Below are positions 2,268 through 9,719 of a stretch of 34,204 nucleotides of DNA, piece after piece (within the stretch, counting starts at the first letter, position 1; every line of letters begins with the position of its first letter). A program made the position numbers and the translations under genes. The notes under the pieces were generated by a model, which saw nothing but the letters and a program-made list of their open reading frames with translations, was not told the DNA's origin and ran no database searches. The stretch covers positions 1 through 34,204 of the forward strand of contig JAGWRZ010000170.1 of assembly GCA_028876365.1 (NCBI GenBank), written 5' to 3'. This stretch comes from Acidobacteriota bacterium (GTDB lineage: Bacteria > Actinomycetota > Thermoleophilia > Gaiellales > Gaiellaceae).

Positions 2268-2957
2268 ATGGCGGGCATGAAGGTCCTCGTCACCCTGGCG
2301 ATCGCCGTCGCCCTCCTCGCGGGCGGAGCCGGCGCCGCGACGAGCGCCGGCTCGACCGGGGACACGGTGACGGTCACCGGGAACGGCGCCGTGGACGCGG
2401 TGCCCGACGAGGCATCCTTCTCCTTCAGCGTGCAGACGAAGGCGACGACCGCGACGGCGGCGCTCGCGCGCAACGGCGCAGCGACGAAGGCCGTGATCGC
2501 GGCCGTCGAGGGGGCGGGGGTTCCCGAGGCGAACGTCCAGACCGCGCAGGTCTCGCTCGACCCGGTGCAGTCGAGCGACGGGACGTCGATCGTCGCGTAC
2601 TCCGCATCCGACACGATCACCGTGACGAAGCTCGCGATCGCGCGCGCCGGCTCGGTCGTCGACGCCGCGGTCGGCGCGGGGGCGACCGACGTCTCCGGGC
2701 CCTCGCTCGAGCTCTCCGACCAGGACGCCCTGTACGCGCAGGCGCTGAAGGCTGCGGTGGCGAACGCGAGGTCGAAGGCGCAGGTGCTCGCGGACGCCAC
2801 CGGCCGAAGCCTCGGCGAGGTCGTCTCGATCGTCGAGGGAGGGAACGCGGTCATGCCTCTCCCGGTCGCGGCCGGCGCCGCGCAGAGCAGCACCCCGATC
2901 GAGGCCGGCACGCAGGAGATCGACGCGACCGTCACGGTCGCGTACGCGCTCGGCTGA
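2268..2957 (+). CDS. Secreted SIMPL (DUF541) domain protein
   Basis: 229 residues. Starts with an export signal (hydrophobic core VTLAIAVALLAGGAGA, cleavage probably near residue 25) followed by one SIMPL/DUF541 domain: VTVTGNGAVDAVPDEASFSF at its start, the central region with NVQTAQVSLDPV, and the terminal EIDATVTVAYAL. The family is periplasmic or extracellular and includes oxidative-stress-related proteins such as E. coli YggE; its biochemical role is unclear. An alternative ATG at 2277 gives a more typical signal peptide (MKVLV) and may be the real start; neither has a clear ribosome binding site. Confidence 0.85.
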   Translation: MAGMKVLVTLAIAVALLAGGAGAATSAGSTGDTVTVTGNGAVDAVPDEASFSFSVQTKATTATAALARNGAATKAVIAAVEGAGVPEANVQTAQVSLDPVQSSDGTSIVAYSASDTITVTKLAIARAGSVVDAAVGAGATDVSGPSLELSDQDALYAQALKAAVANARSKAQVLADATGRSLGEVVSIVEGGNAVMPLPVAAGAAQSSTPIEAGTQEIDATVTVAYALG

Positions 2958-2963
2958 CGACTC

Positions 2964-3674
2964 CTAGCTCTTCTCGACCGGCAGCGGGCGCGTCGACCAG
3001 TCGCTCCACGATCCCGGGTACAGCACGCCGGCGCGGCCGCGGAGGGACGCGCGGTGGAGGACGACGCAGGCGGTGATGCCCGAGCCGCAGTAGGCGACGA
3101 GCTCGCCGTCCGGCAGCTCCGGCAGATCCTCGTTCCAGGGCGCGTTGAGCGCGCCGGGGATGCGGCCCGGCGTCGCGTCGGCCGGGTTCGGCTCTCCCCG
3201 CCAGCGCGCCGCCGTGCGCGCGTCGACGAGGACGAGGCGACGGTCGGCGAGCCGCCCCGCGAGCGCGGCCGCGCCGATCGTGTCCCCCTCGCGCGCGCGC
3301 GGGACGAACTCGGCCGCCTCGACCTCCTCGTCGCCGGAGACGAGCGGGCCGGCCCAGGCGTCCATCCCCCCGAGGAGGACGGCGCAGTCCTCGTGCCCGA
3401 AGTGGCGGAGGAGCCACCACAGCCGCTCGGCGCCCCCGAGCAGGCCGTAGGCGACGACGAGCACGCCGGGGCCGATCCCCGCCCGCGACGCGGCGGCGGC
3501 GAAGCGCTCCGCGGAGGGCAGCGGGTGCCGCCCTTCGCCCTCGACCGACGGATCGGAGAGATCCTCGTCGACGTCGAGAAACGCCGCGCCCGGAATGTGA
3601 CCTGCCCGGTAGAGCTCGCGGCCGCGCCCGGGCGACCCGAGCTCCCACCGGCAGTCGACGAACTGGTGGCGCAC
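2964..3674 (-). CDS. Thiosulfate/3-mercaptopyruvate sulfurtransferase (tandem rhodanese)
   Basis: 236 residues from a GTG at 3674. Two rhodanese domains: an inactive N-terminal one (LYRAGHIPGAAFLDVDEDLS, then AYGLLGGAERLWWLLRHFGH, no catalytic Cys) and an active C-terminal one (RIPGALNAPWNEDL, then AYCGSGITAC with the persulfide-forming Cys). CGSGIT resembles the CGSGVT loop of SseA/mercaptopyruvate-type enzymes. It transfers sulfur to cyanide, thiols or proteins. The N-terminus is about 20-30 residues shorter than usual: the first beta-strand is reduced to FVDCRWELG. In-frame sequence upstream of the GTG lies within the divergent cupin region, so I keep this start. Only 27 bases separate it from the divergent cupin gene. 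Confidence 0.85.
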   Translation of the reverse strand: MRHQFVDCRWELGSPGRGRELYRAGHIPGAAFLDVDEDLSDPSVEGEGRHPLPSAERFAAAASRAGIGPGVLVVAYGLLGGAERLWWLLRHFGHEDCAVLLGGMDAWAGPLVSGDEEVEAAEFVPRAREGDTIGAAALAGRLADRRLVLVDARTAARWRGEPNPADATPGRIPGALNAPWNEDLPELPDGELVAYCGSGITACVVLHRASLRGRAGVLYPGSWSDWSTRPLPVEKS

Positions 3675-6348: not shown

Positions 6349-7227
6349 TCAGCGAGCGTATAGGCCGGCGATCTCACGGGCAGTCGCCGCGATCCGGTCG
6401 CGCAGCTCCACCGGCTCGAGCACCTCGAGGGCGGCGCCGTGGCGGAGGAGCTCTCTCCGCGCCTGGTCCAGGCTCTCGTACACGAGCGTGCGCTCGCCTC
6501 TCGGGCCCCGTGTCTTCACCTCGACGCGCGGCCTCCCCTCCTCGAAGGCGCGGGACCACTCCTGCCAGTAGGCCGAGAGCTCGAATCCCTCCGGCCGCTC
6601 GCACCGCTCCTCGAGCGCGCGCACCGACACCATGCGCGAGACGCGATAGACGCGCATGCCGGCGACGCGGTGCGCCACGAGGTACCAGGCGCCCGCCTTC
6701 AGCACGAGGCCGAGCGGGTCGATCGTCCGCTGCACGACGCGGCTGCCCTCGCGGTAGCGGATGCGGACGCGGCAGCCGCGCCAGACGGCGGAGGCGAGCG
6801 CCGGCAGGTGCGGGACGCTGTCCTCGGCGCGAAACCAGCCCTTCGGGTCGAGGTGGAAGAGCCGCTGGGCGCGGCTCGCGCGCTCCTGGAGCTCGGACGG
6901 GAGCGCGGCGAGAAGCTTCAGCCGCGCCGCGGCGAGCTCGCCGCCGAGCCCGAGCTCCGCGGCCGGCCCGGAGACGCCGGCGGCGAAGAGCGCCTCGGCC
7001 TCGTCGCCCGTCAGACCCGTCAGCCGCGTGCGACAGCCGCCCGCGAGCCGGTAGCCGCCCGCCGGCCCGCGCACCGCCTCGACCGGCACGCCCGCGGCGG
7101 CGAGCGACTCGACGTCCCGGTGCACCGTCCGCACGGATACCTCGAGGCGCTCGGCGATCCCGGCCGCCGTGAGCTGCCCGCGCGTCTGCAGGAGCAGGAG
7201 AAGCGAGACGAGCCGGGTCGCGCGCAT
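6349..7227 (-). CDS. WYL-domain transcriptional regulator (YafY type)
   Basis: 292 residues. N-terminal HTH (about 1-60: SLLLLLQTRGQLTAAGIAERLEVSVRTVHRDVESL) and a wing with GVPVEAVRGPAGGYRLAGG. The WYL domain (about 140-220) holds VRIRYREGSRVVQRTIDPLGLVLKAGAWYLVAHR, and a WCX-like C-terminal extension ends ARRELLRHGAALEVLEP. WYL domains sense small ligands or nucleic acids. It heads an operon with the LysE exporter and is divergent from a cupin gene; a palindrome lies between them. Likely an autoregulator and regulator of the flanking genes (inferred from position). Confidence 0.9.
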   Translation of the reverse strand: MRATRLVSLLLLLQTRGQLTAAGIAERLEVSVRTVHRDVESLAAAGVPVEAVRGPAGGYRLAGGCRTRLTGLTGDEAEALFAAGVSGPAAELGLGGELAAARLKLLAALPSELQERASRAQRLFHLDPKGWFRAEDSVPHLPALASAVWRGCRVRIRYREGSRVVQRTIDPLGLVLKAGAWYLVAHRVAGMRVYRVSRMVSVRALEERCERPEGFELSAYWQEWSRAFEEGRPRVEVKTRGPRGERTLVYESLDQARRELLRHGAALEVLEPVELRDRIAATAREIAGLYAR

Positions 7228-7253
7228 CCGATGCCGACCCTACGGCAAGAACA

Positions 7254-7281
7254 TGACAGAAGATGGCCTCTTTACCTGTCA
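7254..7281. promoter_or_regulatory. Palindromic candidate operator between WYL regulator and cupin
   Basis: TGACAG (7254-7259) and CTGTCA (7276-7281) form a perfect 6+6 inverted repeat with a 16-base spacer in the short divergent region. Its position, 27 bases in front of the regulator start and just before the preferred cupin start, suits a binding site for the WYL regulator. Confidence 0.5.
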
Positions 7282-7292
7282 GTGTCCCCGGC

Positions 7293-7721
7293 ATGAACAT
7301 CTGGGATGACGACTGGGGCGAGCAGGAGGAGGACTGGAGCGGCGGCGGCGCGCTCGCGAAGCGGCTCGTGCCGGGCGGCGGGCCGATGCTCGGCGCGTCG
7401 CTGTACGAGCTCGGCCCCGGCGGCTTCGCCGTCTACCACGCACACCACGGGTCGGAGGAGCTGCTCGTCGTCCTCCGCGGACGGCCGACGCTGCGGACGC
7501 CTACGGGCGAGCGCCGCCTGGACGCGGGCGATGTCGTCCACTTCACCACCGGCCCCGAGGGAGCGCACGGCCTGCGCAACGACACGGATGAGCCCGTCCG
7601 CTACGTCATGGCCGGCATCCGCGTCACGCCCGAGGTCGTCGAGTACCCGGACATGAAGAAGGTCATCGGCCAGTCGCGGCACGGGATCTTCTTCGTCCAC
7701 GACGTCGAGGAGGAGGGATGA
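7293..7721 (+). CDS. Cupin domain protein
   Basis: 142 residues from ATG 7293. An acidic, Trp-rich N-terminus (NIWDDDWGEQEEDW) precedes one cupin domain. Motif 1 is YHAHHGSEELLVVLRGRPTLR and motif 2 is GDVVHFTTGPEGAHGLRN, followed by TDEPVRYVMAG. The His and Glu ligands are present. Substrate unknown. The in-frame ATG at 7263 is disfavoured because the TGACAG/CTGTCA palindrome spans it. Divergent from the WYL regulator and perhaps controlled by it. The stop overlaps the next small gene as ATGA. Confidence 0.85.
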   Translation: MNIWDDDWGEQEEDWSGGGALAKRLVPGGGPMLGASLYELGPGGFAVYHAHHGSEELLVVLRGRPTLRTPTGERRLDAGDVVHFTTGPEGAHGLRNDTDEPVRYVMAGIRVTPEVVEYPDMKKVIGQSRHGIFFVHDVEEEG

Positions 7722-7852
7722 ACGAACGCGAGGAGACGGCGACCGTGGTCGAGCTGTTGCTGCGCGAGCCGGAGATCGTCGCGTGGCTCGAGGATTACCG
7801 TCCTCTGCCGGAAACGGCAGAGGACGACGACGAGCCGCCGCACGCTGCGTGA
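7718..7852 (+). CDS. Small acidic protein, 44 residues
   Basis: An open frame with ATG at 7718, overlapping the cupin stop as ATGA and preceded by a strong purine-rich site (GAGGAGGAGGG). The product begins MNEREETATVVELLLREPEI, continues with an amphipathic stretch containing VAWLEDYRPLP, and ends in an acidic tail (AEDDDEPPHAA). No recognised domain, no membrane segment. Translational coupling to the cupin suggests a real small gene, perhaps a partner of the cupin; function unknown. Confidence 0.55.
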   Translation: MNEREETATVVELLLREPEIVAWLEDYRPLPETAEDDDEPPHAA

Positions 7853-7853
7853 T

Positions 7854-7882
7854 TTGACGTCGTTCGGTCGAGCCTCTATCGT
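7854..7882 (+). promoter_or_regulatory. Vegetative-type promoter
   Basis: TTGACG (7854-7859), a 17-base spacer and TATCGT (7877-7882) form the best -35/-10 pair in the window. Initiation would fall at about 7889-7891, directly before an ATG at 7892, giving a leaderless upstream ORF and a leader of roughly 145 bases for the ABC exporter. Confidence 0.65.
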
Positions 7883-7891
7883 TCGCAGGCC

Positions 7892-7969
7892 ATGTTGCTC
7901 GGTTACGTGATGAACACGCCCACGGTCGGCTGCCTCGGCAGCGCCGTGGTGCAGCGCGGCCACCGCTAG
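7892..7969 (+). CDS. Putative leaderless upstream ORF (25 codons)
   Basis: ATG at 7892 to TAG at 7967-7969. The peptide begins MLLGYVMNTPTVGCLG and ends VVQRGHR. It starts at the predicted 5' end of the transcript from the promoter at 7854-7882. Ten bases after its stop is a perfect GC hairpin (7979-7992), followed by the exporter Shine-Dalgarno at 8025-8030. The arrangement fits a regulatory leader peptide whose translation state sets expression of the ABC exporter, but coding is not proven. Confidence 0.4.
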   Translation: MLLGYVMNTPTVGCLGSAVVQRGHR

Positions 7970-7978
7970 GTCCGCGCG

Positions 7979-7992
7979 CCGCCGGCCGGCGG
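7979..7992 (+). promoter_or_regulatory. GC hairpin in ABC exporter leader
   Basis: CCGCCGGCCGGCGG is a perfect palindrome (5-bp stem with GGCC loop). It sits between the upstream ORF and the ATPase gene. The following pyrimidine-rich bases (TTCTCCCGTTCTCC) are only a weak terminator tail. Confidence 0.4.
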
Positions 7993-8034
7993 TTCTCCCG
8001 TTCTCCGTATCCGTCGCTTTTCACAAGGAGCAGC

Positions 8035-8901
8035 ATGTCCGCCTTCGCAGCACCCACAGCTCTCGGCACGTCCGTCCGCGGCGATGTCCCCGCGGTGGAA
8101 GTCGACAACTTGACGAAGGTCTTCCGCCGGCGCGACCCGAAGGCGGGGCGCTTCACGCGCCGCCGCCTCCCCGCGCTGAAGAAAGTCACGTTCACGATCG
8201 AGCGCGGCGAATGCGTCGCCATCCTCGGTCAGAACGGCTCGGGGAAGTCGACGCTCGTCCGCCTGCTGTCGACGCTTCTCCTCGAGGACGGCGGCGAGGC
8301 GCGCATCTTCGGCCACGACGCGTTCCGCGAAGCCCGCCTCATCCGCCGGCTCGTGAACCGCGTCTCCGTCGAGGCGAGCTTCTTCAAGAAGATGTCCGCG
8401 CAGGAGAACCTCTCCTACGCGGCGCGCTTCTACGGCATGACGCCGGCGCAGACGCGGACCGCAATCCCCGAGATCCTCGCGAAGGTGGGCTTCCCGCCGG
8501 AGCGGCGGACCGAATCGATGATGAACCTCTCGCGCGGAATGCAGCAGAAGGTCGCTCTCGCGCGCGCGCTCCTGACCTCGCCCGTCCTGCTCCTGCTGGA
8601 CGAGCCGACCACGGGTCTCGACCCGCGGTCGAAGCGCGAGGTGCAGGAATTCATCCGCGAGGTGCGGCGCACCCACGACGCGACGATCCTGCTCTGCACG
8701 CACGACATGGCCGAGGCCGAGGCGCTCGCCGAGCGCGTCGGGCTGCTCGACCGCGGCGAGCTCCTGTTCCTCGAGCCGGTGGCCGAGGTGAAGCGCCGCT
8801 ACGGGGTCGAGACCCTCGAGGAGGCGTTCTTCGCGGCAACGGGGCGCAGCTTCGAGGAAGAGCAAGACGAGGACGACGAGCTGAGGGAGGTGTTCGGATG
8901 A
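8035..8901 (+). CDS. ABC-2 type exporter, ATP-binding subunit
   Basis: 288 residues, ATG 8035 with AAGGAG four bases upstream. Complete nucleotide-binding domain: Walker A GQNGSGKST (about residue 64), Q-loop region, signature LSRGMQQKVALARALL, Walker B LLLLDEPTTGLD, and H-loop LLCTHDMAEAEALAERV. An insertion before Walker A (RRRDPKAGRFTRRRLPALKK) and a very acidic C-terminus (EEEQDEDDELREVF) follow the DrrA/CcmA-like exporter pattern. It powers the permease encoded next (ATGA overlap). Substrate unknown; drug, lipid or polysaccharide export are the usual roles. Confidence 0.93.
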   Translation: MSAFAAPTALGTSVRGDVPAVEVDNLTKVFRRRDPKAGRFTRRRLPALKKVTFTIERGECVAILGQNGSGKSTLVRLLSTLLLEDGGEARIFGHDAFREARLIRRLVNRVSVEASFFKKMSAQENLSYAARFYGMTPAQTRTAIPEILAKVGFPPERRTESMMNLSRGMQQKVALARALLTSPVLLLLDEPTTGLDPRSKREVQEFIREVRRTHDATILLCTHDMAEAEALAERVGLLDRGELLFLEPVAEVKRRYGVETLEEAFFAATGRSFEEEQDEDDELREVFG

Positions 8902-9719
8902 CGACCATCGGCGCGACGATGCGCAACGAGCTCATCGGCCTCGGCGGCTTCGTCGAGCGCAACGTCTATCTCACGAAGCGCTACATCCTCTGGGACATCG
9001 CGTTCATGATCTGGACGATCGCGAACACGCTCACGATCGTGTTCATCGCGCGCGTCGAGAACCTTCCGAAGGCGAAGGAGAACGAGCTCGCCACGATCCT
9101 GCTCGTCGGAGCGGTCATCTGGGCGTTCCTCGGGATCATCTTCGAGTTCATGACGGAGACGGTCGCATGGGAGCGCTGGGAGGGCACGATCGAGTACACG
9201 TTCATGGCGCCCGTGTCGCGGACGATGCACCTGTTCGGCCAGGGCGCGTTCGCGGTGCTGTACGGGCTCATCCGGGCGACGATCCTGTTCTTCGCCGTGG
9301 CGGCGTTCATCGGCCTCCACGTCCCGCACGCCAACTACGGCGCCGCGTTCGCTCTCCTCGCGATCGCGTCGGTGTCGTTCATCGGCGTCGGGATGATGAC
9401 CTCGGTGCTGCCTCTCATCTCTCCCGAGAAGGGCGCGCAGCTCGGCTTCGTCGCGCAGGGCGTCATGCTCGTCGTCTCGGGCGTCTACTACCCCGTGTCG
9501 GTGATGCCGCACTGGATGCAGCTGATCGCGAAGATCTCGCCGGCGACCTACGTCCTCCGCGGCGACCGCGCCTCGATCGTCAGCGGCGCCGGGATGCGGT
9601 GGGCCGACGTCTGGCCGCTCGTGGTCATCGCCATCGCCTCGATGCCGATCGGGTTGACGATCTTCCGCATCGGCGAGCGGCACGCGAAGAGGCACGGGAA
9701 GCTCAAGAGATCGGGATGA
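8898..9719 (+). CDS. ABC-2 type exporter, permease subunit
   Basis: 273 residues, six predicted membrane helices (for example YILWDIAFMIWTIANTLTIV, LLVGAVIWAFLGIIFEF, ATILFFAVAAFIGLHV, and a C-terminal VWPLVVIAIASMPIGLTIF). The ABC-2 signature region QGVMLVVSGVYYPVSVMPHW is followed by ISPATYVLRGDR. A basic tail (HAKRHGKLKR) ends the protein. Start ATG 8898 overlaps the ATPase stop. Ends nine bases from the convergent rfbD gene. Confidence 0.92.
   Translation: MTTIGATMRNELIGLGGFVERNVYLTKRYILWDIAFMIWTIANTLTIVFIARVENLPKAKENELATILLVGAVIWAFLGIIFEFMTETVAWERWEGTIEYTFMAPVSRTMHLFGQGAFAVLYGLIRATILFFAVAAFIGLHVPHANYGAAFALLAIASVSFIGVGMMTSVLPLISPEKGAQLGFVAQGVMLVVSGVYYPVSVMPHWMQLIAKISPATYVLRGDRASIVSGAGMRWADVWPLVVIAIASMPIGLTIFRIGERHAKRHGKLKRSG

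Follow-up and report, generated by a model that had tools for sequence, protein, structure and literature searches.

The locus

The window analysed here comprises positions 1-34,204 (34,204 nucleotides, nt) of contig JAGWRZ010000170.1 (assembly GCA_028876365.1) of a bacterium of the Gaiellaceae, phylum Actinomycetota. The subject of this study is the leader of an ABC exporter operon in the window, in which a short upstream open reading frame (uORF) lies between a promoter and the Shine-Dalgarno sequence (SD) of the exporter gene. The features of the locus are the following.

7854-7882, + strand: sigma-70-type promoter TTGACG-17-TATCGT, with the -35 box TTGACG at 7854-7859, a spacer of 17 and the -10 box TATCGT at 7877-7882.
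7892-7969, + strand: predicted (near-)leaderless uORF MLLGYVMNTPTVGCLGSAVVQRGHR, 25 codons (7892-7966) and TAG (7967-7969), from sequence reading and from the NTG start and frame-specific stop in relatives.
7891-7900, + strand: 5' arm of helix H1, CATGTTGCTC, from the start codon to codon 3 of the uORF, in the role of an anti-SD (fold and swap tests).
7901-7915, + strand: 5' arm of helix H2, uORF codons 4-8 (minimum-energy fold and H2 swap test).
7979-7992, + strand: palindromic GC hairpin CCGCC-GGCC-GGCGG, apical in the leader, 9 nt past the uORF stop (sequence reading).
8000-8012, + strand: 3' arm of H2, GTTCTCCGTATCC, just 5' of the SD (minimum-energy fold and H2 swap test).
8025-8030, + strand: SD of the exporter gene, AAGGAG (sequence reading).
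8028-8037, + strand: 3' arm of H1, GAGCAGCATG, the core of the exporter SD together with the start codon (fold and swap tests).
8035-8901, + strand: DrrA-like ABC exporter ATPase of 288 amino acids with ATG at 8035, the putatively regulated gene (ABC_tran 2.3e-30).
8898-9719, + strand: ABC-2 type permease, overlapping the stop of the ATPase gene and in the same operon (ABC2_membrane 1.4e-17).

The promoter is the one sigma-70-like site found in 7000-9400, where shuffled sequence gave an expectation of 0.1. The uORF ATG (7892-7894) lies 9 nt 3' of the -10 box, and the mRNA would therefore be leaderless or have at most about 3 nt 5' of the ATG. No terminator-like site was found on the + strand within 7000-9400.

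Conservation of the layout in related genomes

Of 103 genomes of the window's family, 64 yielded an ortholog of the exporter, and more orthologs came from elsewhere in the class and phylum; the named records among the relatives are metagenome-assembled genomes of Thermoleophilia, Gaiellaceae, Solirubrobacterales and Nitriliruptorales. The leaders analysed number 73, in 36 groups from several families of Actinomycetota. Besides the leaders of the window's family, 17 of them came from f10, another family of the class, and from f13, f44, f46 and f50 of the phylum, with L210 in addition.

The layout is present in every same-family ortholog for which both the sequence upstream and the start of the gene were legible. 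All 56 such leaders have a frame that begins 7-12 nt, mostly 9, past a -10 box, and one additional family leader (L055) fits the same arrangement. Two leaders (L189 and L194) are not interpretable, while L065 has a similar mini-ORF (MFRRD) but a gene start that cannot be placed. Because the arrangement recurs throughout the family and also in other families of the phylum, it is not a product of chance. Re-reading of the window gave the promoter, ATG, 25-codon frame, GC hairpin and exporter SD as the initial annotation had them; that account knew of no described case with this peptide. The leader is not confined to the window and occurs in several families of the phylum. Loss of the frame in relatives had been named as evidence against the proposal, and the frame is conserved.

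Pairing of the uORF with the exporter SD

The first codons of the uORF are complementary to the ribosome-binding site of the exporter. In the window the two arms of H1 match with one G-U pair, the 5' arm of H2 pairs with the bases just 5' of the SD, and both helices are part of the minimum-energy fold of the leader. An alignment made with MAFFT and analysed with RNAalifold gave no consensus structure. Leader length varies and MAFFT placed the arms poorly, and for this reason anchored swap tests were used. The 5' arm (uORF -3 to +24) was paired either with its own 3' arm (exporter -32 to +3) or with that of another group, with one representative for each of the 36 groups.

Cognate arms gave -22.8 kcal/mol against -17.4 for swapped arms (standard deviation 0.57), the best of 5000 swaps reaching -19.3; since the groups share ancestry, the permutation spread is to be taken as a guide and not as a strict probability. 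Each helix behaved in the same way when tested alone, with -12.5 for cognate and -10.3 for swapped arms in H1 (standard deviation 0.39) and -13.6 and -10.5 in H2 (standard deviation 0.43), both beyond all 4000 swaps. A control segment 5' of the promoter, which is untranscribed, showed no difference (own -15.26, swapped -15.32).

A stronger argument for the structure than the permutation spread is that the stem changes on both sides. Compensatory arm pairs include TGTTGCTCC/GGAGCAACA, GATGATGCTC/GAGCATCAG, AAGCTC/GAGCTT, GCATGTTCC/GGAGCATGC and GGGCTCC/GGAGTCC. The register is largely fixed: the first G of GGAG lies opposite uORF base +10 in 46 of the 73 leaders and opposite +7, one codon earlier, in 15. 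The exporter SD is thus sequestered by a conserved RNA helix, according to both computation and covariation.

Conservation of the start, frame and stop

The frame is retained along with the pairing. The start codon is ATG in 67 leaders, GTG in five and TTG in one, with a -10 box (TANNNT) 6-12 nt, most often 9, on its 5' side. The TG at positions 2-3 of the uORF is kept also where the pairing partner of the T or the G changes. A stop within codons 2-8 is found in the uORF frame in 32 of the 36 groups, and in the other two frames in three and one. The uORF has 17-25 codons in the window's genus, 4-7 in most others, 13-14 in two genera and 28 in one; within the window's genus frames of 17, 23, 24 and 25 codons all end with an in-frame stop at the same place. 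Both the RNA structure and the reading frame are well supported.

A ligand-binding riboswitch or another pure RNA switch with an incidental uORF would account for the covarying stem and the apical hairpins, but is very improbable, as start and in-frame stop are retained while their pairing partners change, no conserved aptamer-like core was seen and no Rfam covariance model matched the leader.

Computed effect of a ribosome on the leader

The cost of opening the exporter start site was computed with ViennaRNA, with a ribosome masking successive uORF codons. For the window's genus the computed cost was 14.8 kcal/mol in the free leader, about 6.2 with the ribosome on codons 1-6 and 15.0 with it at codon 10. 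Other leaders went from 10.9 when free to 6.0 with the ribosome on the first codons; over both sets the values for codons 1-6 were about 6.0-6.8. For the window itself the cost was 10.3 in the free leader, 5.8 when codon 1 was occupied and 10.7 when the ribosome had reached codon 10. The effect on base-pair probabilities of the SD over the leaders was weaker than that on the opening cost. The lower computed cost leads to the expectation that the exporter is switched on while a ribosome is kept at the first codons.

The leader is best read as a leaderless translation attenuator of a drug-efflux-type operon, with relief when ribosomes are kept at the first codons, a reading to which we give a probability of about two in three. 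The transcription start would coincide with the uORF ATG or lie some 3 nt from it at most, and ribosomes would load on the leaderless start codon. With the 5' end free, the exporter SD, its start codon and the preceding bases would be masked by pairing with the 5' arms of H1 and H2. Were a ribosome held on roughly the first seven codons, as by an antibiotic that stops initiation or early elongation, both 5' arms would be covered, and the SD would open and allow synthesis of the exporter. A ribosome moving at its normal pace would leave or terminate quickly, and the stem would form again.

The same structure and frame, the conserved NTG at the 5' end and the lower computed cost of opening when codon 1 is occupied would also fit a constitutive coupling, in which initiation at the leaderless uORF keeps the stem open and the exporter follows the efficiency of leaderless initiation by 70S ribosomes with no need for an antibiotic. 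This is unlikely, since passage over 4-7 codons would open the stem just briefly, the stem is strong (10.9-14.8 kcal/mol) and targets of efflux type suggest an inducible function.

Several observations weigh against the proposed relief by held ribosomes. The position of the mRNA 5' end at or near the uORF ATG is inferred from the spacing to the -10 box. Judged by base-pair probability the SD of the window is not freed by a ribosome (0.13 in the free leader, 0.07 with the uORF start codon masked). The SD sits in an internal loop of the stem in genus g20 and in L033 and L039. The scores of the exporter and pump proteins against the NCBIfam drrA and tet pump models are all under the curated cut-offs. 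Family f2, which belongs to the same order, lacks the layout in four of four orthologs and has a different leader instead. Inspection of the regions upstream of orthologs in Rubrobacter-type genomes (f23) likewise gave no such leader; it was also not seen in Chloroflexi and other phyla. Finally, the uORF starts were placed by eye from the -10 box and the ATG, and a pattern search therefore served as an unbiased check. The pattern ATGYTGYTCNTCGGYTGA matched seven times in 396 genomes of the phylum and four times in 399 genomes of the class, about 760 genomes in total, and 11 of 11 matches were directly 5' of the orthologous exporter; the reversed pattern gave 0 and 1 matches in the same two sets.

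One candidate leader, L213, was rejected as a chance match of the pattern within a gene. The f2 leaders (L023, L025, L028 and L030) are GC-rich and of two subtypes, marked by GTGGCCTGTTGCGCCGG or GGTGGTCGCGCCGAG close to the predicted 5' end, where an ATG is absent. In the Rubrobacter-type sequences (L195-L206) a conserved small protein ending in about ...EETWRVVWERLEARGRL often precedes the exporter gene.

Variation of the encoded peptide

The short uORFs encode peptides such as MLLLG, MLLRFG, MKLFFG, MMLARS, MFRIA, MFLG and MLFLG, often of the form M-L-L/F-x-G-stop. In the window's genus, differences at codon positions 1, 2 and 3 number 239, 258 and 200. In this genus, with its retained frame and stop, translation thus seems to be conserved and the amino acid sequence not. 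Together with the peptides of mostly 4-7 residues elsewhere, the near-equal numbers make occupancy of the first codons by a ribosome the likelier signal. No conserved arrest peptide of the ErmC type was found, given these differences in the genus and the variation of the peptide among genera.

Stalling specific to the nascent peptide, as in ermC, with the encoded peptide (M-L-L...; M-L-L/F-x-G) sensing the drug, is accordingly improbable, more so than constitutive coupling. It would explain why M-L-L/F-x-G is found repeatedly in distant families and why glycine is the commonest residue before the stop (27 of the 60 leaders that come from other genera). The differences are, however, spread evenly over the codon positions, the pairing is kept in genera with MMLARS, MFRIA, MRPRS or MSGITNADV, and the leucine and phenylalanine codons result from the pairing of CUC and UUC with GGAG. 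In genus g20 (L035, L040, L041 and L042) the uORF has 14 codons and its peptide, M[ST]GI[AT]NAD..., is recognisable; part of the SD lies in an internal loop of the stem.

The control by translation sensing proposed in the initial annotation was thus borne out in part. The conserved frame, start near the 5' end and stop position, and the pairing of the uORF with the exporter SD, agree with it, whereas stalling on a particular peptide is not supported, and the comparison of synonymous sites that it suggested gave no excess of conservation at any codon position to speak of. The central structure is not the GC hairpin but the long-range stem, with the first uORF codons as anti-SD; hairpins of the kind CGCC...GGCG with varying loops do occur in most members of the window's genus.

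Target genes and operon partners

The nearest NCBIfam models for the ATPase and permease of the window are drrA and drrB, both under the cut-off. The pair is followed by genes on the opposite strand (rmlD-like), and the operon in the window consequently consists of the ABC pair alone. A TetA(P)/Tet(40)-like protein of the major facilitator superfamily (MFS) is encoded in 22 genomes of the family; in about 17 of these its gene lies 3' of the ABC genes, in the same orientation and on one contig with them, and in G105 a Tet(V)-like MFS gene follows the ABC genes. In G098, a genome in which the ABC ortholog was not found at the threshold used, a leader of the same kind (MLLHL) immediately precedes a TetA(P)-like MFS gene (L210, 1595-2821). 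With tet model scores under the cut-offs, the MFS proteins are to be regarded as relatives of tetracycline pumps and not as proven pumps.

The operon of L252 has, between its genes for the ABC permease and the TetA(P)-like MFS protein, a gene (2367-3065) whose product resembles S-adenosylmethionine-dependent methyltransferases (daptide_MTase 5.9e-21). A 44-codon ORF at 7719-7853 of the window directly follows a cupin gene, and its TGA (7851-7853) abuts the start of the -35 box; in L005 a similar small ORF also terminates 5' of the promoter.

Comparison with known systems

In translation attenuators of the cat/erm type a stem hides the SD of the resistance gene and gives way when a ribosome stalls in the leader ORF, and the erm leaders have drug- and peptide-specific arrest sites. 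The leader described here has in common with them the stem over the target SD and its proposed opening by a ribosome on the leader ORF, but the cat/erm leader ORFs possess an SD of their own.

The pairing resembles that of the toiL uORF upstream of topAI in Escherichia coli, the whole of which is base-paired to the ribosome-binding site of the following gene; ribosomes stalled in toiL, among them those that tetracycline or retapamulin stalls at its start codon, free that site (PMC12121999). It differs in having its own SD, in belonging to a toxin-antitoxin transcript and in involving Rho termination (PMC12121999), whereas the leader here would be (near-)leaderless, is often of 5-6 codons, precedes efflux-type genes and is found in several families of Actinomycetota. 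The mini-uORFs of ARE-ABCF genes (MRI for CplR, MIN for VmlR, MAGN for LsaA) are similar in size, with 3-4 codons, and control a resistance gene; pleuromutilins, lincosamides and related antibiotics presumably stall the ribosome on them right after initiation (PMC10201436). They act through premature transcription termination on ribosome-protection ABCF targets (PMC10201436), while no terminator was found here and the target is a membrane exporter.

Leaderless small ORFs that attenuate the operon behind them are known in actinobacteria from the polycysteine attenuators of mycobacteria (Canestrari 2020, as described in PMC9031893 and PMC13236596). According to these accounts they sense cysteine through Cys codons; the present uORF has no run rich in one amino acid, and its start is the anti-SD. 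The whiB7/wblC leader, as cited in PMC12121999, is also an actinobacterial uORF that responds to many ribosome-targeting antibiotics, but according to that citation it controls transcription of a regulator and not translation of an exporter by SD pairing.

The literature on leaderless uORFs, antibiotic attenuation and ABC transporters, as far as it was covered, contained related mechanisms and not this leader, and with partial coverage an earlier description is possible. The traits that set the leader apart among translation attenuators are that it is predicted to be leaderless, that the start-codon region serves as anti-SD, its minimal size and its target genes. It appears to be an undescribed kind of built-in sensor of ribosome stress.

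Implications

As a tentative extension, for which the odds are somewhat below even, the leader may be an ancient, phylum-wide sensor of the state of the ribosome, independent of the peptide, in which the leaderless start codon is the anti-SD arm and which serves interchangeable pumps (ABC and TetA(P)-like MFS). Such a switch would directly read whether a ribosome occupies the 5' end of the mRNA.

If the proposed mechanism is true, the part would be minimal, as five or six codons would be at once a reading frame and a lock on the next gene, and it could provide a compact design for reporters of ribosome stress. Leaderless translation, which is common in actinobacteria, would double as a detector of ribosome-arresting drugs, and the presence of the leader would predict which pumps of uncultured soil actinobacteria are induced by translation inhibitors.
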